The position numbers and the translations under genes were made by a program. Shown here one piece after another: positions 22,726 through 64,000 of a DNA stretch of 64,000 nt (the stretch's first letter is position 1; the number at the start of each line of letters is the position of its first letter). The stretch lies in the NCBI GenBank assembly GCA_015143295.1, contig CM026557.1:30513965-30577964 (forward strand), written 5' to 3'. The notes below the pieces were generated by a model. It was given only the letters and a program-made list of their open reading frames with translations. It searched no databases and was not told the DNA's origin. Origin of the DNA: Tetracentron sinense. Lineage: Eukaryota; Streptophyta; Magnoliopsida; Trochodendrales; Trochodendraceae.

Positions 22726-23430
22726 TCATTTAAACGTAGTAGACTGACTGTTGTGCAAACCCTCATCCCCCACAACCAACTTCTCCTTCTCTTCCGCCGA
22801 TCCAGGTTCCAATATTACCGCATTCTCTTCCTGAACCGACTGCGATCCCGTCAACCTCGCCAACATAACAAACGAAACCCCACCAAGAACATTATTCAAA
22901 GCTCTCAAAACCACGACTGAGGCCTTAAATCCAAAGGGCGAGAGCGACTTCTCTAGCAAAAACTCCATCCCATTCAATGTCTGGTATCTAAAATTACTGC
23001 TCAAACCCATGTGAATTGCCCAAGTAAGAGCATTCAAAACTGTAGGTGGAGCCTTATTGGGAGTCTTAAAATTGGGATCCATCTTCTTCCTCATCTTGAT
23101 CAATCCATTTGAGAGAGCCGTACCAACAAGACCAGCAGCGAATCCAACAGCAGCAAAAAGCGTTCCTTTATAAACAAAAGTCCCAAACCGATCAAGAACA
23201 CTATAAGCTCCTGATTCAAACATGTGACTTGTTGGACAGCTGGCAAAGATCGTAGGGAGATTGGGCGATGAACTCAACATCGTAGGGGCTAGAAGATACA
23301 TAAGAACGAAATTCAAAATCGATCCAACCACGAGAGTTGAAAAGACGAAATCGAGCTCGTTGAGACCGAAATTAGGGCGAGAAGCCATATCGCCTAGAAC
23401 GCAAGCACTAACGCCGACCAATTCCTCCAT
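22726..23430 (-). CDS. RETICULATA-related (DUF3411) chloroplast protein, N-terminus missing
   Basis: The 234-residue frame contains the hallmarks of the plant RETICULATA-related family: GDMASRPNFGLNELDFVFST near the start, a hydrophobic segment around residues 30-52, CPTSHMFE, a second Gly/Ala-rich membrane segment around 88-108, and the C-terminal block ARLTGSQSV. Family members act in plastid membranes and affect leaf mesophyll development. They usually have about 100 or more further N-terminal residues, including a transit peptide. Here the frame is open upstream only to an in-frame TAG at 23497-23499, and the sequence above it looks like a CT-rich leader and then LTR. I infer 5' truncation or loss of an upstream exon. 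The 234-residue body is uninterrupted, so it decayed recently if at all. RER3 or RER4 subtype cannot be decided. Confidence 0.8.
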   Translation of the reverse strand: MEELVGVSACVLGDMASRPNFGLNELDFVFSTLVVGSILNFVLMYLLAPTMLSSSPNLPTIFASCPTSHMFESGAYSVLDRFGTFVYKGTLFAAVGFAAGLVGTALSNGLIKMRKKMDPNFKTPNKAPPTVLNALTWAIHMGLSSNFRYQTLNGMEFLLEKSLSPFGFKASVVVLRALNNVLGGVSFVMLARLTGSQSVQEENAVILEPGSAEEKEKLVVGDEGLHNSQSTTFK

Positions 23431-25662: not shown

Positions 25663-25941
25663 GTGAGTCTTTGCTTCCTTACTTTTTGTTTATCATTTCT
25701 ATTTGATTGCTCATACTTATGCTTGCTGTTTTTTTTTATTATATTATTTTTCGTCATTGTAGAAATTTTGATCATCTGTAAATTATGTCATTTTATCTAC
25801 TTTTTATTCTTTTATTGTTGTTATTATATGTATGTTACTGTTTTTTTTTTTTTTGTTTCATCATTCATTTTCATCACCATTTTTTTTTTAGAATACACTG
25901 TAATTTATTTATTTTTATTTCTGCAACTTTTACGCTTTCAG
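25663..25941 (+). other. 5' UTR intron of the PMD gene
   Basis: The donor attctg|gtgagt (intron from 25663) and acceptor gctttcag|ct (intron to 25941) frame a T-rich, 279-nt stretch. The PMD start codon ATG (25944-25946) lies 2 nt after the acceptor. A longer frame runs upstream through the T-rich stretch, but its residues are low-complexity, so 25944 is the better start. Confidence 0.65.
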
Positions 25942-25943
25942 CT

Positions 25944-27809
25944 ATGGCATCTTCTTCTCAAAAAAATATTTTAAGTAACGAATTTTGGGATTCAGCTATG
26001 CATCATTCCTGGGATACCGCTGTTCCTCCAGATGGATGGTCATTGCCCTATGGTGACATCGATGGAACTAAAGGATTTTGTCCACCTCCTTTTGCTACTA
26101 CTATGTTCAGAATAGAAAGAAAAGATTTCACGCTTTCTCAGGTTAATTTTAGTTCTCACAGCCGTTGTACCAAGGAGTGGACAGCTTGGTGTGATTATAT
26201 ACTCACTCACCCAGAGTATGGGCCAAAACTTCATGCAGCTGAGATTTTTAAAGCTATAGAGCTTTCGAAGGATTTTGAGATTAGGAAAGATACAGATAGT
26301 TTATCTCAGTTAGTTACTAGGTGGAACAGTCAAACTCACACTTTTATTACTTCATGGGGAGAAATCACCCCTACTTTGGAAGATGTGATGGCGTTATGGA
26401 GATTACCTGTTTTCGGGAATAATGACATACAAGACATTGTTTTGAGTAGAGAAGAGATAAAAGCGTCAAGACTTTTGCATGCTCTGGTTTGGGAATCGAG
26501 AGTAAATCCAGTTTGGGGAGCTTCAAAGGAGTCTCATGCAAGGCGGCCAAATTTCTACGGCTGGGTACGCTATTTCTTCAGGGAGAAAGGTCCTGTGAAC
26601 AAAGAGACAGGAGTCAGAGACTATCAATATGGAAAGGAGTACAAGTCTCCTTTAGAGTTGACAGCGTTCATCTGCATGTGGCTGTCTAGATATGTCTTTG
26701 AAGGCGCTCCTACTGACAAAGTTTTGGATAGATTATTTCCATTGGCTTTCCGCCTAGCTGACGGTCAGAGTTTCCCTCTTGGAATTTATTTTTTGGGAAC
26801 TTTATACAAGAATTTAGATCAAATCCATAAGTGTCAGGCCTGGTCAGCAGGTTCTTTTCTCATAGAATCATTTGTTCATACCGCTTTTCTTCAAATGTGG
26901 TTATGGGAACGTTTTCCCGGTTATGCGCCTTCAGCTAGGCAGTTTTCTCCTTTGCAACCTGATAATACCGCTGTTGAAGATCTCCCAAGTCCAAGGGCAT
27001 GGCGGTGGAGTAGTATTGCCAGAAAGAAGGATGCGTTGATCTTTGACTTTATTGACAAGGAGAAATGCTTCTGCTTCAGACCTTACATTGAACTTTCAAG
27101 AGGTATTGAAAGATTCTTTTATCATTCTGAGGAGCCTTTATCTTTCATAGGCATGAGTACTGAGGAGAGAGCAGAAGTTTCTTTGAAGGATCTTCACTGT
27201 TTTGCCATTTTGTCCAAATGTCATTTGATCGGTTTATACAGCGTTGATGGCGGTAAAACCAACAGTTTCTGCCTTGAATCTTACAATCCTGATCGGTGTC
27301 TGAGGCAATTTGGGCTCGATCAAGGCGTTCCGGATGGTACAGCTGAATCCTTTTCTCTAAAGAGAACCATGAAGGCTTTCATTCTGGAGAGTTGGTCCTT
27401 AAACTTAAGGCCATCTGTTGCCGGTTTTTACTTGGCTGGGGAGCATAGGATAGGCAGATGTACGAAGAACTACCAGCTTTTCTGGAAAGCTTGCATTGCT
27501 ACCTTCAAAACCTTTGTTCAGGGTCCGCCAATGCTCAGTCAAACTGTTAATCTGGCTATGGACAAAGAAAAATGTCTGAAAGAGCCCCCTGGTGCAGGCA
27601 AGAAAAGGAAAGCGGTAGCTTCTCCTCACAAGAAATCTAAATCGAAACCCGCTGTTGGAGGTTCTTCAGAAATCCGAGAGGAAAACATTACTCCTCCTCA
27701 ACCTGCAATTATTACTGCTCCGAAGGCGGCTACTCCAAGAGCGCCTAGAATCAAAAAGATTGCAATAAAAAAGAAGGCACCTCCTTCTAAGAAGCGAAAG
27801 AGCCAATCA
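25944..27809 (+). CDS. Plant mobile domain (PMD) protein, first coding exon
   Basis: 622 codons are open from MASSSQKN to a donor at 27810 (caatca|gtaagc). The body matches the plant mobile domain (aminotransferase-like, PF10536) family: WTAWCDYIL around residue 77, WGEITPTLEDVMALWRLPV around 135-155, then a long conserved region with GWVRYFF and LELTAFICMWLSRYVFEG. The C-terminal part is basic, with several KKRK-type clusters (about 550-620) that would act as nuclear signals. PMD proteins occur in host MAIN/MAIL genes and, commonly, inside transposable elements. Here the gene is antisense to the pol of a Tat-lineage element, between pol and the 3' LTR, where extra antisense ORFs of this lineage are known. 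It has its own TATA box and 5' UTR intron. The exon is intact, unlike the rest of the element. Confidence 0.85.
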
Positions 27810-27924
27810 GTAAGCAAAGCTTTTTATAATTAAAGCATTTTTCTTATTCATACGCTTTTCAATTTTTCATTTGTATAATTTTTTTGTCACTTATATATAT
27901 ATTTTTTTTCTTGATCTGCCACAG

Positions 27925-47240: not shown

Positions 47241-50200
47241 CTAAACAAAAGAATCAAAAGACTCTAAAACTCCCATACGGGTTACATGCTCTTTGAAAAC
47301 TCTAACTGAAAGACCCTTAGTCAATGGATCAGCAATCATGATTAAGGTAGAACAGTGAGGGATAATGATTAAACCAGCTCGAACTTTCTCTCGCACATAT
47401 AGATATTTTATCTCTATATGTTTGTTCCTGCTTGTGACATGGTCGTTCTTAACATATTGAACGACAGCTGCATTATCACAATGAACTTTGATCGGTCGCT
47501 CAATGGAGTCCACTATTTTGAGCTCACTGATAAAGTTCTTTATCCAAATGGCCTGTTGTGCAGCCTCATAACAAGCAACATACTCTGCTTCCATGGTAGA
47601 AGATGCCACCAAGGATTGCTTGGCACTTCTCCATGAAACTGCACCTTGAGCTAACATGAAAACATATCCCGAAGTCGACTTCAAACTATCCTGACATCCA
47701 GTATAGTCAGAATCTGAATAACCAATAACTTCCAGCTCATCACATCTCCGGTAAACCAGCATGAAATCTTTAGTCCTTTGAAGGTACCGAAGTACTTTCT
47801 TAACTGCAGTCCAGTGAACAGCTCCAGGATTCTTCTGATATCTTCCCAACATCCCAACAATGAAACTCAGGTCAGGCCTGATGCAAATCATGGCATACAT
47901 AAGACTCCCAACTGCGGAAGCATAATCAGTAGAATCCACTTGAAGTCTTTCAACTTCATTCTTGGGACATTAACGATTATTGAAGATATCTCCCTTAACT
48001 ACTGGAGCATCTCCGGGAGCACAATTCTGCATCTTGAATCTGGTTAACACTTTGTCAATGTAAGCCCTTTGTGATAAACCCAAACATCCTGAACTGCGAT
48101 TTCTAGTGATCTTGATGCCTAAGACATAACTTGCCTCTCCCATATCCTTCATATCAAAATTCCGAGACAAGAATAGCTTGGTATCATGAAGCATATGAAC
48201 ATTATTACTTGCTAAAAGAATGTCATCGACATACAGCACAAGAATGATAAACCTACTCCCACTCAACTTGAGGTATATGCATCGATCCATTGGATTTTCA
48301 TGGAAACCATGTTGAATAACAACTTTATCAAACTTCAGGTACCATTGCCTGGAGGCCTGTTTCAAACCATAAATCGACTTCTTCAGATTGCAAACAAGTT
48401 CTTCACTTCCAGGAGTAACAAAACCTTCTGGTTGATCCATGAAAATTACCTCTTCAAGTTCACCATTCAGAAATGCAGTTTTAACATCCATTTGGTGAAG
48501 TTCTAGATTGAAATGCGCTACTAGAGCCAAAATAATTTTGAGGGAATCTTTCTTCGAAACAGGTGAGAAGGTCTCAACATAGTCAATGCCTTCCTTCTGC
48601 TTAAAACCCTTGGCCACAAGCCTTGCCTTAAATCTTTCAATTTTACCTTCAGAATCCCTTTTGGTCTTGTAAATCCATTTACACCCAATAGTTGAGGAAT
48701 TAGGAGGTAAAGATGTAAGATCTCAGACTGAATTCTTCTCCATAGACATCAATTCCTCTCTCATCGCATTCAACCATTCTCGAGAGTGCGGACTCTGCAG
48801 AGCATCTTGAAAACTGGAAGGATCTACAGAATCACTAATGTCACCTTTATTCAAATACACTTCATAATCAGAAGATATAGCTGATCTTCTATCCCGTGAA
48901 GATCTTCTCAGAGATACTGGTGCAGCAACAGTTGGAGCAACAACAGTTTGAGTTGGTGCAACAATATCAGCTGCTATTGTCGCACCCTGTTGTTCTTCTT
49001 GCACTGGCACTGCAACTGTACGAGTGACCTGAACAACCGGTGAAAGCGGCCTAGCTAGAAGTGGTAGTAGTGAAAATGAACTACCATCATCAAGTACTTC
49101 CTCAAAAACAACTTCTCTGTGAACTGAGCTTCCAATTTCACCATCTTCCAGAAATCTCGCATTATTGGTCTCCCCAAACTGAGATGGTCTAGAAGGACAA
49201 TAAAATCTAAAACCCTTCGATCTCTCCGGATATCCAATGAAGCGACAACTCACAGTTCTAGGATCAAGCTTCTGCAAGGTGGGATCATAAATTCTTGCTT
49301 CAGCATGACAACCCCAGATGCGAGAATGATGAAGACTAGGCTTTCTCCCAGTCCAGAGGAAAAAGGGGGTTTCAGGAGTTACATTGTTGGGGACCCTGTT
49401 CAAAATATAAACAGCGGTCTTAAGGGCTTCACCCCAAAAGCTATCAGGTAAATCTGTGTGACTCATCATGCTGCGAATAGCATCCATATAAGTTCGGTTC
49501 CTCCTCTCAGCTACACCATTCTGCTCCGGAGTCCCAGGAGTGGTGTACTGAGGCACAATACCGTGTTCACGAAGGAAACTGACAAATCCATCGTGGTTAA
49601 CCCCATCAACATCAGCTTTCCCATAGTATTCACCTCCCCTATCAGAACGGACAGCTTTAATCGGCCTGTCCAACTGCTTCTCCACTTCAGCCTTGTATTG
49701 CTTGAACATCTCTAATGCTTCAGACTTATGATGAATTAGAAATACAAAGGCATAACGAGAGAAGTCATCGATAAAACTGATGAAGTATCGCTGACCACCT
49801 CGAGATGCTGTAGGGAGAGGTCCACATATATCAGTGTGTATCAGGTCCAAAAGACCAGTACTTCTAACTGCATCCAAATTCCGACTCTTAGTCATCTTTC
49901 CCTTAATACAGTCTATACAAGTCTCGAAGTCAGAAAAGTCAAGGGGTTCCAGAACTTCAGACTTAACTAAAGACTCTAAATGCTTCTTTGATATATGACC
50001 CAATCTACGATGCCACAACATAGAAGAATTTCCCTTTTGTCTAACACGTTTAGAACCGGTAACTGGAGTAGAAGAATCAACTGTCATGCATAGTAAGGAT
50101 GATGCAAAACTAGAATCCAAAACCAACTGATAAAGACCATCAATCAAAATACCATTTCCAATGGTCTGCAAATTATGTCTAACAGATAGCACACTCCCCT

Positions 50201-51398
50201 CAAATAAAAAACTGTAGCCAGATGTACCAAGTCTAGAAACTGAAATAATATTCCGTCTAAAAGACGGCACATAAAAAGTATCATCCAAAAGCAAAACATG
50301 ACCAGAGTCTAAAATCAGTCTGCAAGTCCCAATAGCCTCTACTACTGCTGGTGAAGAATTCCCCATGAATAGAAGCTCCTCATCCTTGGCCTTACGTCTA
50401 TGTACGAACCCCTTAAGAGAATGAGAAATGTGCACAGAGGCACCTGAATCAATCCACCAAGTGTTTGAAGGAACATCTACTAGGTTTGATTCAAAGCATA
50501 CCAATGATAAATTAATACCTTTATTCTTCTTCTTGGCCCACTCCTTATACTTTAAGCAGTCTTTCTTCACATGCCCTTTCAACTTGCAGAAAAAACATTC
50601 TATCTCCTCTGGTTTGATGACAATCCCTCTGCCCTGAAACTGATCTGCCTTCCCTTTCCCTTTGAATTGATGACCCTGGTTCTGCCCTGAACTCTGCCCT
50701 GGAAAAAATCTCTGAGTATTTGGCTTCTTGAAAACTTTTGTCTTGAAGTTCTTCTTACTTCCAGAACGAATAGCCAAATTTGCAGATTCGGCCTTACCAT
50801 GCTTAGTGCGTTCTTCTTCACTCACACAAACTGCTATCAGTTCGTTGAGGGTCCACTTTCTGTCCTGTGCACTGTAATTAACTTTGAATGCATCAAAGGA
50901 GTGAGGAAGAGAAGCCACAGCTAAATGGACCATGAGGTCATCCTCAATGGTCAAACCCAACTCTCGGAGAGAGATAACTAACTTCGAGATTTTGAGAAAA
51001 TGTTCTCGAACGCTCCCAGCACCATCATACTTCATAGAAATCAACTGAGTCAGACTGCTGTACTGTCTGGATCTAACTGACCCCATAAACTGCTTCTTGA
51101 TAGTCTCAAGAAGCTCTTTAGCTGTCTCAGCCGAAGGGATACCTCCTCTGATGGCTTCCTGAATAGAAGCCCTGATGATCATCATGGCCATCCGATTGAC
51201 CTTCTCCCATTTCGAAAACAAAGACCTATCTGAGTCCGAAGACTCAGCAATGGGAGCATCCGGCTTTTCCTCCAGGAGGACAAAGTCATAGTCTAGGCAG
51301 CCTAGAACAATGTCTAGCTGCATCTTCCAAGAACCATAGTTTGAGCCATTCAATGGCTCAATCCCAGTCAAATACCTGTGTACAACAGATCCGTCCAT
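47241..51398 (-). pseudogene. Copia gag-pol polyprotein with two nonsense codons
   Basis: One frame of 1386 codons including the stop, read from ATG 51396-51398. Gag begins MDGSVVHRYL; its CCHC knuckle is CFFCKLKGHVKKDC (about residue 270). Protease has WWIDSGASVHI (about 313). Integrase has an HHCC finger starting WHRRLGHI, then IHTDICGP, VRSDRGGEYYG and TPEQNGVAERRNRT. RT has CKWIYKTKRD, MDVKTAFLNGELEE and LYVDDILLAS with both catalytic aspartates. RNase H has GYSDSDYTGC and STMEAEYVA. The frame is broken by TGA at 48723-48725 (codon 892, just before RT) and TAA at 47970-47972 (codon 1143). Apart from these two stops it is full length. I leave the copia lineage unassigned. Confidence 0.95.
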
Positions 51399-54760: not shown

Positions 54761-55856
54761 TAACAGCTAAATATTAAAAGATTAGCACTCACCTGAAAAT
54801 TTCAACCTACCTTAGCATCCTCTAGTTACATCCTCTTAGAATTATGTACAATAAAAACTAAGGAAAAGGGGAACTTGAGATTCAGCATACCAATTGTAAT
54901 GAAAACTCTTGGTCAATTGATGCTCTAAATTGAAGACCCACTTGTATCCATTCAGAAAAAAACCAATAATCATGAGGGTTTTTATTACCAACTATTAATG
55001 TGTTGATTTTACCTTGTGGATGTGGACAGAGGAAAGTGACTTTAATTGCACAGGTGCTAAAATAAATCATCATTGAAGGGGATCAAAAGATAAGGTAGTA
55101 AGTCTATTCCATAGGAAAAAGGCTAAGTCTATTCCATTCACAAAAAACCAAAAAAGTGATCGGTTTACTTACTTTTTTTATCAACCAAGTCTATTCCAAT
55201 AAGAAAGAAAAGATTCAAAGGAAATAGCAAAAATTTAAAGATCCATCTAAAAAAGCAGGCAAAGGCATTAAAGTTTTCTCCAACACACTTCAAAACATAT
55301 CACATAGAGAAGCATCCCCCTCAATTCCTCTTCTTCAGCAATGACTATCCCAACATGAACCCCCACCTTTGATTCATAACCATATTCTTCCCCATCAAGT
55401 GCTCCAACCATACACCCACAAATAATTTCATCGAAAATGGTAAGTCTCAAACGCGGAGGTTCATGTGGAGAAAAACAGTGGAAGATATAAACATTCAGCT
55501 CGGCAAATCAAAAATAGAACACTAACTCAAATCACATTATAACCCAACTTGAAATCAAAGATAACACCCACCTATGAAAAGCATTTGTCCCCAACTTGAA
55601 CTCCAATATGCCTAATCACTCACAAACTCAAAATCCTTGAAAACAAAGATCCAGAGAAATCACCTTCAAGTACTTCGCTCGAAATCCCTTAAAACACAAA
55701 GATCCAACACAGCCAAACCATTACAGAAGGAAAAAATTTGCAGTAACAATACTAATCAGAAAATATGTTACAAAGAGGAAAAAAAATATTCAATGCTATA
55801 ATATCCAGAGAGAACCCTTGAATATCGTTTTCATTGGTCGTGTAATCATCAAACTC
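54761..55856. other. Unassigned region between the LINE and the tandem array
   Basis: Two short minus-strand frames (55073-54882 and 55450-55268) have ordinary amino-acid composition but no recognisable motif. They could be exons of a host gene or part of a LINE 5' UTR. Nothing else is seen in this 1.1 kb. Confidence 0.35.
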
Positions 55857-58800
55857 ACAATTGATTAACTCGTGAAGATAAATACTAACACTTGATAAAT
55901 GAGAAAAAAAGAGATGCATCAATATAACTAAGGGAATTGGTAGCCATATACACCCCCACTATCGTGCCAGAAGGAGAATCACTTTGGGGTGGGCCCCAAC
56001 AAACCCCAAGTAATTGTCGAAATGTAGAGACTGGGACGTCTACGACAAGCGAGTCCATAAATAGTAAAATCCTATTTCTTTATAACTTTTTTTAAACATT
56101 ATACTTTCAGTTATAGACTAACATCTAGCATTAATGAAAAATTAGATTATTAATATAAGATTACAAAAGAAAAATAAAATAAAAGGGGGAGACTTACCGT
56201 AAGTGAAGTCGATTGAAAGGAGCAGCCTAGAACTAATAGTCCTTTTTTTAGAAGTCAATGATTCTGTATTGTAATTTCCAGATAGTTATAATGGTGTAAT
56301 TAACTACTTTACCGAATATATCTAATTTAGAAATAAGAAAAAAATCAAATTATTAACAATATAAGACATGATAAGCAATTTAAAAAATGCTGAAACTTAC
56401 CATGGGAGAATCCGAGAGCAAATGACAGTCACGAAAGTTGAAGGGCAGCTAAGAGCAAGGTCCATGCTAAGCTTAATGGCCCTTGAGCAGAAGTCATCGT
56501 ACACACCTCGTTCCATATAGCTCACATGGTGTAGTTGAATAATGTAGGAGTACATAAAACAAATTCAAACAATCAGTTTTCTTACATAGAAAATTTTGAA
56601 TAAAAAATTATAAAAATATAAGAGTTAAAAGTACAAGAACTAAGCACATAATTATATTCAGATCGAGTAATTAGAAGAGAATTTCCCTTAAGCAAGACAT
56701 CTACTCACCATTGATTAACTCGTAAAGATAAATACTAAAACCTAATAAATGATAAATAAATAAAAGGATGCATCCATATAACTAGTGAAATTGCTAGCCA
56801 TAAACACCCTCACTATCTTGCCAGAAAGAGAAACACTTTGGGGGTGGGCCCCACCAAACCCCAAGAACTTGTCAACATGGAGAGAGTGAGACATCTACGA
56901 CTAGCGAGTCTATAAATAGTAAAATCCTATTTCTTTTTTACTTTTTTTAAAGATTATACTTTCAGTTATAGACTAACATTTAACATTAGTGAAAAATTAG
57001 ATTATTAAAATAAGATTTCAAAATAAAAATAAAATAAAATGGGGACATATACCGTGAGTGAAGTCGATTGAAAGACGCATTTAAAAATTAATAGTCCTTT
57101 TTAAGAAGTCAATGATTCTGCATCATAGTTTCCAGATATTTATAATGGTGTAATTAACTACTTTACCGAATAAATCTAATGTAGAATTAAGAAAAAATCA
57201 AAATTTTATCAATATAAGACAAGATAAGCAACTTAAAAAATTATGAAACTTACCATGGGAGAATCTGAGAGCAAATGACAGTTGCGAAAGTTAAAGGGCA
57301 GCCATGCTAGGCTTAATGGCCCTTGAGCAGAAGTCGTCTTTCACGCCTCGTTCCATATAGCTCACATGGTGTAGTTGAATAATGTAGGACTAAATAAAAC
57401 AAATTCAGACATCAGTTTTCTTACCCAGAAAATTTTGAATGAATAATATAAAAATATAAGACTTAAAAGTACAAGAACTAAGCAGAGAATTATATTCAGA
57501 TTAAGTAATTAGAAGAGAATTTCCCTTAAGCAAGACATCTACTCACCATTGATTAACTCACGAAGATAAATACTAACACTTGATAAAAGATAAAAGAAGG
57601 GACGCATCAATATAACTAAGGGAATTGCTAGCAATATACTCCTCCACTATCTTTCCAGAAGCAGAAATACATTGGGGGCGGGTCACACCAAACCCCAAGG
57701 ACTTGTCGAAATGGAGAGAGTGGGACTTCTGAGACTAGCGAGTCTATAAATAGTAAAATCCTAATTCTTTTTTATTTTTTTTAAAGATTATACTTTAAGT
57801 TATAGACTAACATCTAGCATTAGTGAAAAAATAGATTATTAACGTAGTTTACAAAAGAAAAATAAAATAAACAGGTAAGACATACTGTGGTGAAGTCGAT
57901 TGAAAGGCACAGCCTAGAACAAATAGTCCTTTTTTAGAAGTCACTAATTCTGCATTATACTTTCCAGATAGTTATAGAGGTGTAATTAACTATTTTACCG
58001 AATAAATCTAATTTATAAATAAGAAAAAAAATCAAATTGTTAACAATATAGGACAGGAAAATAATTTAAAAAATGGTGAAACTTACCATGGGATAATCCT
58101 AGAGCAAATGACAGTCGCGAAAGCTGAAGGGCAGCCAATGCAAGGTGCATGCTACGGTTAATGGTCCTTGAGCAGAAGTCGTCGTTCACGCCTTGTTCCA
58201 TATAGCTCACTTAGTTGTTATGTAATATAGGAGTACATATAACAAATTCAAACAATCAGTTCTCTTACATGTAAAATTTTGAATAAATAATATAAAAATA
58301 TAAGAGTTAAAAGTACAAAAACTAAGTAGAGAATTATATTCAGATCGAGCAATTAGAAGAGATTTTTCCCTTAAGCAAGACATCTACTCACCATTGATTA
58401 ACTCGCTAAGATAAATACTAACACTTAATAAATGATCAAAAAGGGATGCATCCATATAACTAATGAAATTGCTAGCCATAAACACCCCCACTATCTTGTC
58501 AGAAAGAGAAACACTTTGGGGGTGGGCCCCACCAAAATCCAAGTACTTGTCGAAATGGAGAGAGTGGGACGTCATTGACTAGCGAGTCTAGAAATAGTAA
58601 AATTCTAATTCTTTTTTTACTTTATTTAAAGAATTATACTTTAAGTTATAGACTAACATCTAGCATTAGTGAAAAATTAGATTATTACCAAAGATTACAA
58701 AAGAAAATTAAAACAAAAGGGGGAGACCTACCATGAGTGAAGTCGATTGAAAGGAGCAACGTTGAACTCTTAGTCGATTTTTAGAAGTCAATGATTATGC

Positions 58801-59698
58801 ATCGTAGTATCGAGATAGTTATAATGATGTAATTAATTACTTTACTGAATAAATCTAATTTAGAATTAGGAAAAAATTCAAATTATTAACCATATAAGAC
58901 AAGATAAGAAATTTAAAAAATGGTGAAACCTACAATGGGAGAATCTGAGACCAAATGACAGTCACAAAAGTTGAAGTGCAACCGAGAACAAGGTCCATGA
59001 TAGGCTTATTGGCCCTCGAGCAAAAGTCTTCGTTCATGCTTCATTCCACATAGCTCACATGATGTAGTCCAATAATGTAGGTGTAAATAAAACAAATTCA
59101 GAAAATCAGTTTTCTTATACATAAAATTTGAATGAATAATATAAAACTATAAGACTTCAAAGTACAAGAACTATGTAGAGAATTAAATACAGATCGAGTA
59201 ATTGTAGAGAATTTCCCTTAAAGAAGATATCTACTCACCATTGATTAACTCGTAAATTCAAATACCAACACTTGATAAATGATATAAAAGTGATTCATCA
59301 ATATAACAAAGGCAATTGCTAGCCATATATGCCTCCACTATCTAGTAATATACGTCCCCATTATCTTGCCAGAAGGAGAAACACTTTGGGGGTGGGCCCC
59401 ACCAAACCCCAAGTACTTGTCGAAATGGAAAGAGTAGGATGTCTACGACCAGCGAGTCTATAAACAGTAAAATCCTAATTTTTTTTACTTTTTTTAACGA
59501 TTATACTTTAAGTGATAGAATAACATCTAGCATTAGTGAAAAAATATATTATTGAGATACTAAAGAAAATTAAAATAAAAGGGCTCACATACCATTAGTG
59601 ACGTCGATTGAAAGACGCAACCTAGAACTAATAGTCCTTTTTTAGCAGTCACTGATTTTGCATCATAATTTCCAGATAGTTATGGTGGAGTTATTAAC
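55857..59698. repeat. Tandem array of a unit of about 845 bp, 4.5 copies
   Basis: The landmark ttgattaactcg recurs at about 55861, 56711, 57549, 58394 and 59241, a period of 838-850 bp. Every unit shares gtgggccccac, ataaatagtaaaat or variants, gaagtcgattgaaag, atagctcac and aaacttaccatggga. Units differ by many substitutions and small indels, so the array is old. It is cut on the right by the gypsy element at 59699. On the minus strand each unit holds three exon-like blocks ending in donor-like sequence. The block at 58575-58384 is open for 63 codons; equivalents in other copies are broken. I recognise no protein or satellite family. Confidence 0.85.
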
Positions 59699-59909
59699 TG
59701 TAGAGCCCCGGACCTTTTCACATTTATGCATGACCCTTCGTAGCCATTTTTCCTTTAAAGTAATGCAATTAATAAATAAGGAAGAAATTTGAAATTCTGA
59801 AATGTCAGAAATGTTCGTTTTCGAAGTACGAACCCAACGCAAGTTGAATCGTCAAAATCGGACGAACGAGTCAAAAGTTATGGCCAAAACAGCTTGGACC
59901 TGCAGACCA

Positions 59910-60095
59910 CCGATCGCTCGGTCCATGGAGCGATCGATCGGTCCAAAACCGATCGCTCGGAGGCTATCGACTGGTCGAGATTTTTCTATGGGGAAATTTT
60001 CCAGAGAGTGAAATTTCAACCGATCGCTCGGTTATGAAACCGATCGATCGGTAGGCAACCGATCGATCGGTCATTAACACCGATCGCTCGGTACT
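59910..60095. repeat. Cluster of CCGATCGNTCGG palindromes x7
   Basis: Seven copies of ccgatcgctcgg, ccgatcgatcgg or gcgatcgatcgg lie within 190 bp, 20-60 bp apart. ccgatcgatcgg is a perfect 12-bp palindrome. The cluster lies about 210 bp from the LTR start. Confidence 0.9.
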
Positions 60096-61005
60096 CGCGT
60101 TTTTGCAGAAAATTTAGAAGGGTGTTTTAGTCTTTTGAGTGGTTTACTCTTACCTTAAGAGTCTTGCCCGAGCCTTTAGGGCTTATTTGCAATACTTAGA
60201 AGATTGAGAGCTAAGGAAGGGAGAAGAAGGCGATCCCTAACCTAGGGTTTGATTTTTGGAAGGGAAATCAAAGGGTTTGAGACCCTAGATTATCCTCAAG
60301 CACGTTTTCCTTCAAGATCTCGGCTCAAGCTCGTGTGGAGCTCGTGTTCCAAGCTAGGGCAGCAACTCACGGTCGTTTGGAAGAGGGGTTTCTTCCTCAT
60401 CTCTTCAAGGTCGGTACTTTTTACTACCCTCCTAGTTATAGCCTCTCCTTCCCTTATTTCTTCTTGTTTTCCTTCATATATATATATATATACATATTAT
60501 GAGATGGGTGGTATGTATGGTAAATGGAGAGGGATGTTGGCGAATGGATGCCGTGTGGATGATGTAATGAATGAATGGGGAAGGGCATAGTACTAATAAT
60601 AAACATACAAGTGTGATGTGAGTATAACCCACCTAGAAAAGCATGTTGTAGGGTTAATGAATAATGAATGTACCATGTTTGATGAAATGTCAAGGTGAAT
60701 AAAATGAATGATAAATTAAGAAAATGCATGTTTAAGGTTTATGGAAATTGCTAGGGTTATGATAGTGTGATTGTTCGCTTTCCCTAAATGATATCAATAT
60801 TAAATTGCCCAAATCATTGATGTTATGTGTTATGAATTACTCAAATGCCATATTTAATTCCAAATGTAAGTATGCACACGACCTCACGAGCACGCATACA
60901 TGACATGATTTACCGAGGTTTTCAAGAATGGGATTTAGAGGTGGGGCATATCGTACGATATGTTTTACCTCGCTTTTGGCAAGGACAAGACAATCATGCA
61001 TTTTC

Positions 61006-61260
61006 ATAAGAAGGGTCTCCCTTCCCTCGCAAGTGCATACTTAACATAAGAAGGGCCTCCCTTCCCTCGCAAGTACATCTCACAAGAACATCTCACAAGT
61101 GAAAGGACATGACATGAGCATTTAGGAAGAAGGGTCTCCCTTCCCTCACAAGTAGTTTACTCTTCCAAGCATGATACAAGCAAGCATGACATGGCATGAC
61201 AAGCATGGGCATTTAGGAAGAAGGGTCTCCCTTCCCTCACAAGTAGTTTACTTTCCAAGC
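61006..61260. repeat. Irregular tandem array with gaaggg/cccttc hairpin x4
   Basis: Four copies of aagaagggtctcccttccct, or with cct for tct, are followed by cncaagt. Each forms a 6-bp stem with a 3-nt loop. Spacing varies from about 30 to 90 bp. Confidence 0.8.
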
Positions 61261-61990
61261 AAGCATGACATGGCATGACACGCACGATACGATAAGATAA
61301 GACAAACATGACAAGTTTTCAAGCAAGGAAATGGTATTTTCAGTCAAGTCAAGTGCACGGTGTTTTCAAGGGTTTTATCGGCTTTTATGAATTCAAGCAT
61401 GATTATATACTCCTTTACTTTATTGTCATGATATGAATTATTCCTGCTTTATATGCTTGAATTGTTTCCTGCTTTATATATGTGAAATGCTTCCTGCTTC
61501 CTATACTGCTATGGTTTGCTATGACTATTGGTTAGTATTTAGTACCCGCTGAGTATTCCATGCTCAGCCGTACTTCTTATGTCGGCAGGTTCTGAGGGAG
61601 CTGCTGCTCCGTTTGATATCTGTGCTCCGAGCCCTTGGGTGGAGGAGGAGTACGTCGAGGAGCCTTTGGAGGAACCTCCCGTAGAGGGTTACCATTAGGT
61701 GGTTGTAGATTCTGAGTGAATAGCTGTGGGTGAGATGAGAGATATACTTTCATGTATTTTGGCGGGCTTGTCCGCACTTTCTTTTGGTTACTTTTGTATA
61801 ACTTGGATTTGAGCATGTATATTCATAGAGGTTTGGTTAGACTTCCACTGTGTTTTATAGTTATGTTCCGCTATATTGTCTTCTATGGTATATGCTCTGT
61901 GGGTTTTGCAGGTTGGTTGTCAAGCAAGTCATGATTAGTCGTCCAAAGTTCACTCTAACTCCTAAGGTGGGTTTTGGGTCGCGACAGAAG

Positions 61991-62002
61991 TGGTATCAGA
62001 GC
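61991..62002 (+). promoter_or_regulatory. Gypsy primer-binding site (initiator tRNA-Met)
   Basis: tggtatcagagc begins 4 nt after the LTR end and is complementary to the 3' end of initiator tRNA-Met. Confidence 0.9.
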
Positions 62003-62346
62003 TTAGGCTTTAGGTCTCTAGGGTCACTTAGAATCTTATACCGCGGCTTGACAAGAGCATATGTTAGGAAACAAGTTAGGAAGGAAGTGAGTCGGGAACG
62101 AGTCTGGTTCCAAGTTTAAGACTAAACTTTAGTCTTAGTCTAAAATGGTTGCATTAACCAAGTACGGGTCCTAGGTACGCTAGAACACTAAAGTATAAGT
62201 ATAATGTGATGAATACTCTGATGACTTGATGTGATGTATATTAGTATTATACAACTAATACAAATTGAATTATTGTGAAATGACATGGAAATAAACTGTG
62301 GTTTTAGTGAGACTCATGTGGTGCTATTGTTCTCAGGACTTTAGTC
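62003..62346 (+). other. Gypsy leader upstream of gag
   Basis: About 345 bp between the primer-binding site and the gag ATG. It is A/T-rich and non-coding, and it would contain packaging and dimerisation signals, none of which I can identify. Confidence 0.5.
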
Positions 62347-63595
62347 ATGAGGCGGGGCACACGGGGTCGTGGACCACACACCAGAGCTTCATCTTCTTCC
62401 AGAGATGAGGATGAGCAGCCGGACCTCTCCCAGGTCTTAGGCTCTATTGCTGAGACACTCGCCATCCTGGCGGCTCGGCAAACTATACCGGCATCAGCGG
62501 CACCTACTCCACCGCCCGCAGCTCCAGTACATCGTACAGCTGGAGTTGAGGCATTCAGGAGATTGAGGCCTCCATCCTTCCATGGGAGTGTGGACCCTCT
62601 TGCTGCGGAGGCGTGGATCCTCCAGATGGAGAAGATTTTTGCAGTCCTCTCGCCTACAGAGGAGGATAGAGTAGCATGGACAGTTTTCATGCTAGAGGGT
62701 GAAGCCCACCATTGGTGGTTGTCCGCATTGAGGACGCGAGACTTGACCATGCAGGGTCAACCTTGGACTTGGGAGGAGTTCAAGGATACTTTTTACAAGA
62801 AGTATTTTCCGATCGGTGCACGGGAAAAGAAAGAGAGAGAATTCATCAACCTTGAGCAAGGTTCGATGTCTGTGGCTGCTTATGAGGCCAAGTTCTCGGA
62901 GCTATCACGCTTCGCGACACATATGATTGCCACCGAGGCAATGAAGGCGAGGAGGTTTGAGCAAGGGCTCAAGGATGTCATCATGGAGAAAGTGTCGGTC
63001 TTCAGGCACACCACTTACGCCGAAGTAGTGGATAAAGCCTTGTTGGTTGAGACCAATTCAGAGACCGTGTCCAAGAAGAGAGAATTGGCGAGAGGCCAAT
63101 CTAGTGGTTCGGTACCTTTAGAGAGGCGGGCCCGGACTGGTCCTTATCAGTATACATGGCCAGCACCACAGATGAGGCCGACTTATGTGCCTCCAGCACC
63201 CCGGCAGTATGTACCCCTGGCACCTCGACCTCAGGCTCTCCCGGCCCCACGGCCAGTTACCCCTCAGGCAGCAAGGTATACACCACCTCCGGTCCCTCCA
63301 GCCTACACATATGAGGTCTGCACTTCATGCGGCAAAAGGCATCCGGCAGGAGATTGCCGAAGAGCATCTGGTGGATGTTATCATTGCGGTCGCCAGGGCC
63401 ACATGATCAGGGATTGCCCTAGCCGGCATTTACCAGGCCAGTCTCAGGGTAGTAAGCCCCCGACACGCCCAGCAGGATCACATCAGGCGTCATCTCAGAC
63501 TACCCGGTCCACACCTCAGTCTCGCCAGGCGAACCAGGGGCGAGTTTTTGCCCTGACAGAGGGCGATGCACTTGCATCTGACGATGTGGTGCAAG
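62347..63595 (+). CDS. Gypsy Gag, first coding exon of gag-pol
   Basis: ATG 62347 opens a frame that unspliced ends at TAG 63604-63606 (419 residues). The N-terminal part is basic then Ala/Pro-rich. The Gag core has FRRLRPPSFHGSVDPLAAEA and WILQMEKIF (about residues 75-105), HHWWLSALRTRDL and FKDTFYKKYFPIGAREKK, matching the retrotransposon gag domain (PF03732). A Pro-rich linker follows, then a knuckle pair: CTSCGKRHPAGDC and CYHCGRQGHMIRDCP (about 325-356). The last residues, VFALTEGDALASDDVVQG, are the usual lead into protease in this lineage. The coding part common to both transcripts ends at 63595, where a splice donor begins. Confidence 0.9.
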
Positions 63596-63739
63596 GTACG
63601 CGTTAGGAGTTATTTTCCTTATTCGTGATGGTTATGTTATGTTTTATCCCTTGTGTACGTAGTTGGTATGCTATATATATATTTACTTACATGTATACAC
63701 TGTTGAGGCTTGAATTGACGTAACTAGCTAAAATTTCAG
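63596..63739 (+). other. Probable GT-AG intron between gag and protease
   Basis: Donor caag|gtacgc, acceptor aatttcag|g, 144 nt, T-rich with A/T runs. Removing it joins the exons in phase 1 and gives ..DDVVQGTLLVNEYLARVL.., the uninterrupted Gag-protease junction expected for the family. Unspliced, translation ends four codons into the region (TAG 63604-63606). Confidence 0.75.
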
Positions 63740-64000
63740 GAACCCTACTAGTCAATGAGTATTTGGCTCGAGTGTTGATTGATACCGGGTCTACTCATTC
63801 GTTTGTCTCGCCGAGTTTTTCAGAAGGCTTTTCTGGGGAGCCAAGTCAGCTAAAACCGGAGTTAGCCATTTCGACTCCGCTCGGCAAAACAGTATTGGCA
63901 GATAAAGTGTATAGAAATAGTTCAGTCCAAGTTGGAAGCCACGAGTTGGCAGTTGACCTCATCGTCCTTGGATTCCAAGACTTTGATATTATATTGGGAA
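63740..64000 (+). CDS. Gypsy protease, start of pol (cut by the window end)
   Basis: This exon is open from the acceptor to the window edge. It encodes TLLVNEYLARVLIDTGSTH, where DTGSTHSFVS is the retropepsin active site, and continues to IVLGFQDFDIILG at the edge, close to the GM-D-W-L motif that normally follows. Protease cleaves the Gag-Pol precursor. RT, RNase H and integrase would follow to the right. There is no ATG near the exon start, in keeping with expression only by splicing from gag. Confidence 0.85.

Follow-up and report, generated by a model that had tools for sequence, protein, structure and literature searches.

A probable intron between gag and protease in a large chromovirus-like retrotransposon family, with a possible role in setting the Gag:Gag-Pol ratio

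Most plant LTR retrotransposons are single-ORF elements, which raises the question of how they produce Gag in excess. Among the elements that bear on this question, CRR is a CRM-clade chromovirus and Bianca a member of the Ty1/copia group. According to Neumann et al. (PMC6317226), most plant groups encode their polyprotein in one ORF, and Ogre and Bianca have separated ORFs; in Ogre the separator lies between gag-protease and RT and is an intron that is spliced from a subset of transcripts. The first-pass annotation of the locus described here had likewise placed the Ogre intron further downstream, between protease and RT. In the Ty1/copia elements BARE1 and EVADE, splicing yields a Gag-only RNA (PMC3735527; PMC12786077). 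The BARE1 intron is given as 104 nt with 37.5% U, and attempts to amplify DNA copies of spliced BARE RNA from barley failed, according to PMC3735527, which also mentions spliced transcripts of the plant gypsy element CRR, where rt is spliced out and two ORFs result. For chromoviruses of Beta vulgaris, Weber et al. (PMC3605345) describe a single uninterrupted gag-pol ORF and the use of a tRNA-Met primer.

Here we describe an abundant family in which the conservation of splice sites may provide an answer, together with natural copies that appear to derive from spliced RNA. We propose, with a probability of roughly 0.8, that positions 63596–63739 of the window (the whole 64,000-nt stretch of DNA that was analysed) are a spliceosomal intron separating gag from pol, such that unspliced RNA would give Gag, spliced RNA would give Gag-Pol, and the efficiency of splicing would set the ratio of the two.

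The element and the segment between its gag and pol

A young chromovirus-like Ty3/gypsy element with two LTRs spans the 3' end of the window, with the following features:

59699–61986, plus strand: 5' LTR (TGTAG...CGACA), 2288 nt, from blastn against the 3' LTR
61991–62008, plus strand: primer-binding-site-like sequence TGGTATCAGAGC..., four bases 3' of the LTR, seen in the sequence
62347–63606, plus strand: Gag ORF in the unspliced reading, 419 aa, with Retrotrans_gag, Ty3_capsid and a CCHC zinc knuckle
63596–63739, plus strand: putative intron, 144 nt, phase 1, donor CAAG/GTACGC, acceptor TTTCAG/GA
63715–63719, plus strand: branch-site candidate TTGAC, YTNAY-like, with the A 21 nt upstream of the final intron base
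63740–64000, plus strand: start of pol with the aspartic protease (DTGSTHSF), the frame open to w67062 past the window
w67166–69454, beyond the window (G000 contig C7): 3' LTR, from its blastn match to the 5' LTR

The LTRs are 99.91% identical by blastn, differing by one substitution and one 1-nt gap, and a target-site duplication, TTAAC, is found at 59694–59698 before the 5' LTR and again after the 3' LTR. The site at 61991–62008 presumably matches the initiator-Met tRNA, and a purine tract precedes the 3' LTR. The pol frame begins at the last base of the segment (63739) and is uninterrupted as far as w67062. The domain scan of pol covered pieces outside the RT stretch, and these pieces, scanned separately, gave RNase H and then Integrase_H2C2 above the cut-off, the integrase core (rve) below the cut-off, SH3_Tf2-1 well over it and, at the end of pol, a Chromo match of 23.6 bits (E 5e-5) against a cut-off of 25.1. 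Among 30 copies, third codon positions vary most, both in gag (28%, versus 9% and 6.5% at the other positions) and in pol (18%, versus 5% and 3%). By its general resemblance, the element may belong to Tekay/Del.

The element is hosted by an array of tandem units of ~850 bp, about 80–84% alike (55853–59698), which resumes past the 3' LTR. Elsewhere the window, which its Pfam hits mark as plant DNA, holds a fragment of a RETICULATA-like plant gene (22726–23430, minus strand), a 682-aa ORF encoding a plant mobile domain (25785–27833, plus strand), and a Ty1/copia element (48723–51398, minus strand) whose gag, GAG-pre-integrase and integrase domains share a single 891-aa ORF.

The Gag stop, TAG at 63604–63606, falls inside the segment, and removal of the segment from the donor at 63596 to the acceptor at 63739 joins Gag in phase to the protease across a split glycine codon, to which exon 1 gives one base and exon 2 two. 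The first-pass annotation had proposed both this Gag end and this 144-nt in-phase junction, and the sequence bears out both. In the Gag/pol frame the segment carries stops at 63604 and 63721, and the remaining frames are closed as well; since 144 is divisible by three, retention of the segment in the window copy blocks pol by means of these two stops, without a frame shift. In-phase removal is weak evidence when taken alone, because 15 of the 49 nearby GT-AG pairs (at least 60 nt) are also multiples of three. The pol frame contains no ATG between 63739 and 64000, hence none before the protease motif, and with no start of its own in this interval the protease, and so pol, must be joined to Gag somehow.

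The composition of the segment and its match to a protein profile also bear on the proposed junction. T makes up 42% of the segment, compared with 21% of Gag and 30% of the protease piece. The branch-site consensus is YTNAY, to which the candidate listed above conforms approximately, and the donor consensus is GTAAGT, from which the donor of the segment, GTACGC, departs; we counted this departure against the intron reading. When the 31-aa tail of Gag is compared alone with Pfam RVP_2, it matches positions 3–25 (E 0.014; 15.6 bits, below the 20.3 cut-off), a match that was not listed when the whole of Gag was scanned, and the protease piece alone matches positions 24–110 (E 1.2e-20): the two halves of the profile meet at the proposed junction.

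Copies with and without the segment

The family is large and recently active. In the host genome, the 19-mer at the acceptor has 3,580 matches at up to two mismatches (20 for the reversed-pattern control). Relatives without the segment had been expected, in the first-pass annotation, to make it a private insertion; such relatives do exist, as described below, but a private insertion is ruled out, the segment being family-wide and present, by the acceptor count, at thousands of places. With a junction-spanning query, the best 40 of 2,098 candidates were scored, and 40/40 match at full length with 98–100% identity; the donor and the acceptor show no change in 30/30 loci from this query, a set that includes the window copy. 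A protease-only query, which exerts no selection for the intron, gave 1,809 candidates, of which the best 40 were scored and 30 loci extracted, and the segment is present in 30/30, again including the window copy. Merging the two 30-locus sets and removing one duplicate of the window copy leaves 59 copies. The alignment of family members that had been suggested earlier as a check on the splice sites gives a uniform result: the GT-AG ends, donor and acceptor, are kept in 59/59 copies.

Copies that lack the segment were sought with a 20-nt exact empty-site probe, which has 52 matches (28 perfect, 16 with one mismatch and 8 with two; reversed control 9), three of the two-mismatch matches looking unrelated by their letters. 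We read 47 of these 52 loci (L062–L108). The gag and pol matches meet at the junction in all ten loci first examined, L068 having a partial gag. Four loci (L062, L066, L070 and L071) are uninterrupted through the entire Gag and through the stretch of pol seen, 504 codons, and eight among the other 37 are open across the whole 1.4 kb seen, so that gag is open into pol over all that was seen in 12/47; in three loci (L080, L083 and L106) the alignment is very poor on one side or on both.

Other families in the genome are continuous at this place. In a search for the RVP_2 family, the best 150 of 14,809 candidates were scored and 150/150 cross the intron place, starting from profile positions 2–5; 135 of them contain no stop, 15 contain one or two, and some sit in single ORFs of about 1,460–1,550 aa. 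Uninterrupted matches rank higher in this search, and the result therefore speaks for the commonness of continuous families without implying any rarity of interrupted ones. In the one related family that we read (L111), Gag is 30% and protease 47% identical to the window element, and the Gag match ends and the protease match starts at one and the same glycine codon, so that L111 presents a natural unbroken form of the site. Given that all 150 scored matches run across the place, the intron is probably derived in the window family. A protein-derived scan of viral contigs brought up no relative, and an IUPAC pattern for the protease motif had no match there.

The continuity of other families is one of the observations favouring a different history, in which an intron-like piece was inserted, most intronless copies represent a lineage from before that insertion, reshuffled by recombination, and splicing is of minor importance in expression. 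Many intronless copies are old and diverged, and they cluster in the trees: the intronless state needs 8 changes on the gag tree and 7 on the pol tree, versus about 35 with shuffled labels. This separation is exaggerated, because the two sets were sampled differently, the intron-bearing copies being those nearest to the window copy and the intronless ones having been chosen otherwise. The gag and pol trees also disagree with each other, hence recombination moves the intron state around. The nearest relatives of L081, L066 and other older intronless copies are other intronless copies, which makes an old intronless lineage possible, through either early loss or an intron never gained, and part of the intronless copies may predate the intron, their ancestor never having had it.

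Recent copies argue against this history as the main one. In both trees the intronless copies nearest to intron copies are L086, L062 and L084; for L070 this is clear in the gag tree alone. Right up to the junction, L084 (gag and pol sides) and L086 (pol side) are nearer to intron copies than to any intronless copy read. Across 600 flanking bases L086 differs from the intron copy L030 at one (gag 300/300, pol 299/300), and the best intronless copy on the pol side reaches 294/300; the gag side of L086 also equals that of the intronless L062 at 300/300, giving no separation there, and L086 and L062 may not be independent losses. For L084 the agreement with intron copies is complete on both sides (gag 200/200, pol 300/300), where the best intronless copies reach 197 and 294. 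The pol side of L062 is a near tie (296 versus 294), and that of L070 is slightly nearer to an intronless copy. Judged from these comparisons, there would be two clear recent losses (L086 and L084) and up to four possible ones with L062 and L070. L086 has two LTRs, whose alignment shows 11 substitutions and 3 gaps; a clean 5-bp target duplication was sought around it and not found, the flanks sharing GGT only. It further counts against a minor role of splicing that intron-bearing elements commonly have both Gag and the part of pol seen, 1.5 kb, open (16/30 loci from the junction-spanning query), though the protease is startless in 63739–64000. We therefore consider the pre-intron history an unlikely account of the intronless copies as a whole.

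Drift within the segment and the remaining alternatives

Between its constant ends the segment varies. Its length in the 59 copies is 144 nt (38 copies), 145 nt (18), 146 nt (2) or 143 nt (1), so that all three phases occur. The first stop in the Gag frame lies at intron position +8 (39 copies), +134 (9), +86 (3), +29 (3), +110 (2), +77 (1) or +11 (1), i.e. at seven different places across 58 copies, and one copy, L034, has none. In L034 (match G000:C23:25566653-25566913) the 144-nt intron is stop-free in the Gag frame, so that translation even of unspliced RNA would continue from Gag into pol. When 28 distinct versions of the segment are aligned, the ends are conserved and TTGAC, TTAAC or TTGAT stands near the acceptor. 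Relative to the window copy, segment identity falls to about 79% among the protease-only-query copies, and one subfamily combines a segment about 79–81% identical with a protease about 98–99% identical; 200 nt of the Gag tail are 93.5–96% alike to the window copy, with one exception at 88% with a 16-nt gap.

Retention of the splice sites while length, phase and interior drift strongly supports an intron-like mode of evolution. Taken together, the family-wide splice sites, the drifting interior, the exact intronless copies and the continuous relative lend strong support to the first-pass proposal that the segment is a spliceable intron. An intron divergence of ~20% beside a protease divergence of ~2% is seen in L034, L036, L042–L053 and others of L033–L061. 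This unevenness, together with the conflict between the gag and pol trees, suggests mosaic elements generated via template switching.

The same variation bears on the possibility that the segment is not an intron but a spacer crossed by stop-codon readthrough or programmed frameshifting. The recurrence of one TAG, at intron +8, as the end of Gag in 39/59 copies would suit such recoding, as would the frame shared by Gag and pol in the window copy, but the window copy presents two in-frame stops with all frames closed, and a segment of 143–146 nt with a first stop that varies in place and kind means that no single recoding signal would serve all copies. Natural copies without exactly the GT-AG segment count against it as well. 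We regard recoding as very improbable, in keeping with the earlier suggestion that an intron here would take the place of frameshifting or readthrough. Hardly more credible is an origin of the intronless copies by precise DNA deletion between short terminal AGG repeats instead of splicing, since AG/G is indeed present at both ends of the segment but a 3-nt repeat is trivial and is carried by AG/G-type junctions anyway, yet the identical exact product recurs in at least two separate recent copies (L086 and L084), perhaps four with L062 and L070.

Proposed expression strategy and comparison with known systems

Under the intron reading, unspliced RNA would be translated into Gag only, ending at whichever stop the intron holds, and would double as the usual genomic RNA, which it must be if most of the copies found keep the intron. 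Splicing would fuse Gag to protease-RT-integrase across the split glycine codon to give Gag-Pol, and its efficiency would set the Gag:Gag-Pol ratio. Now and then, packaging of spliced RNA, followed by reverse transcription and integration, would produce intronless copies that carry the exact junction. These proposals differ in how far they reach: (i) judging from the genomic footprints, splicing very probably occurs; (ii) the division of labour between Gag and Gag-Pol is a further step, which would follow from the reading frames; and (iii) control of the ratio by splicing efficiency would in turn follow from that division. Since the stop varies in position, Gag seems to need no more than some stop a short way past the donor. 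If the intronless copies came from Gag-Pol mRNA, the proportion of acceptor to junction matches, 3,580 to 52 (up to two mismatches), offers a rough upper handle on the packaging of that mRNA.

In the wider context, it seems rather likely that a chromovirus lineage with single-ORF relatives has gained an intron between gag and protease and uses intron retention to control Gag versus Gag-Pol, an "inverse BARE" arrangement separate from that of Ogre and present in thousands of copies, with spliced-RNA copies as a record of packaging leakage. Tekay/Del and other plant chromoviruses resemble the element in tRNA-Met-like primer site, purine tract and, for the pieces of pol scanned, domain content, and also in an end that is chromodomain-like here, its Chromo match lying just under the cut-off. 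The single ORF of the Beta chromoviruses is not shared: two in-frame stops part gag and pol in the window copy. CRR splicing likewise differs, as it involves no gag-protease intron.

With BARE1 and EVADE the element has in common that splicing near the end of gag would regulate Gag versus Pol, and that a short, U-rich plant intron would be involved. The polarity is opposite: the spliced RNA there is the Gag-only form, whereas here, by the reading frames, it is the retained form that ends in Gag, in 58/59 copies. The two cases differ also in their genomic traces, barley BARE having no amplifiable spliced DNA copies and the window family having natural intronless ones. Bianca has two ORFs at an average separation of 172 bp, for which no intron is shown in the passages of PMC6317226 consulted.

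The closest precedent is Ogre, of the Tat lineage of Ty3/gypsy, in which the same logic operates at another position. The Ogre intron lies between gag-protease and RT, whereas the putative one of the window element lies upstream of the protease, with pol then open to w67062; the Ogre separator averages 274 bp (PMC6317226) and the window segment is 144 nt; and the window element, set against Ogre, has chromodomain-like features. Our literature search, in which most subscription papers were out of reach, turned up no gag-protease intron described for a plant chromovirus. Within the literature searched, the gag-protease position of the intron and its occurrence in this lineage, otherwise described as single-ORF, look new, and the underlying logic is the one known from Ogre.
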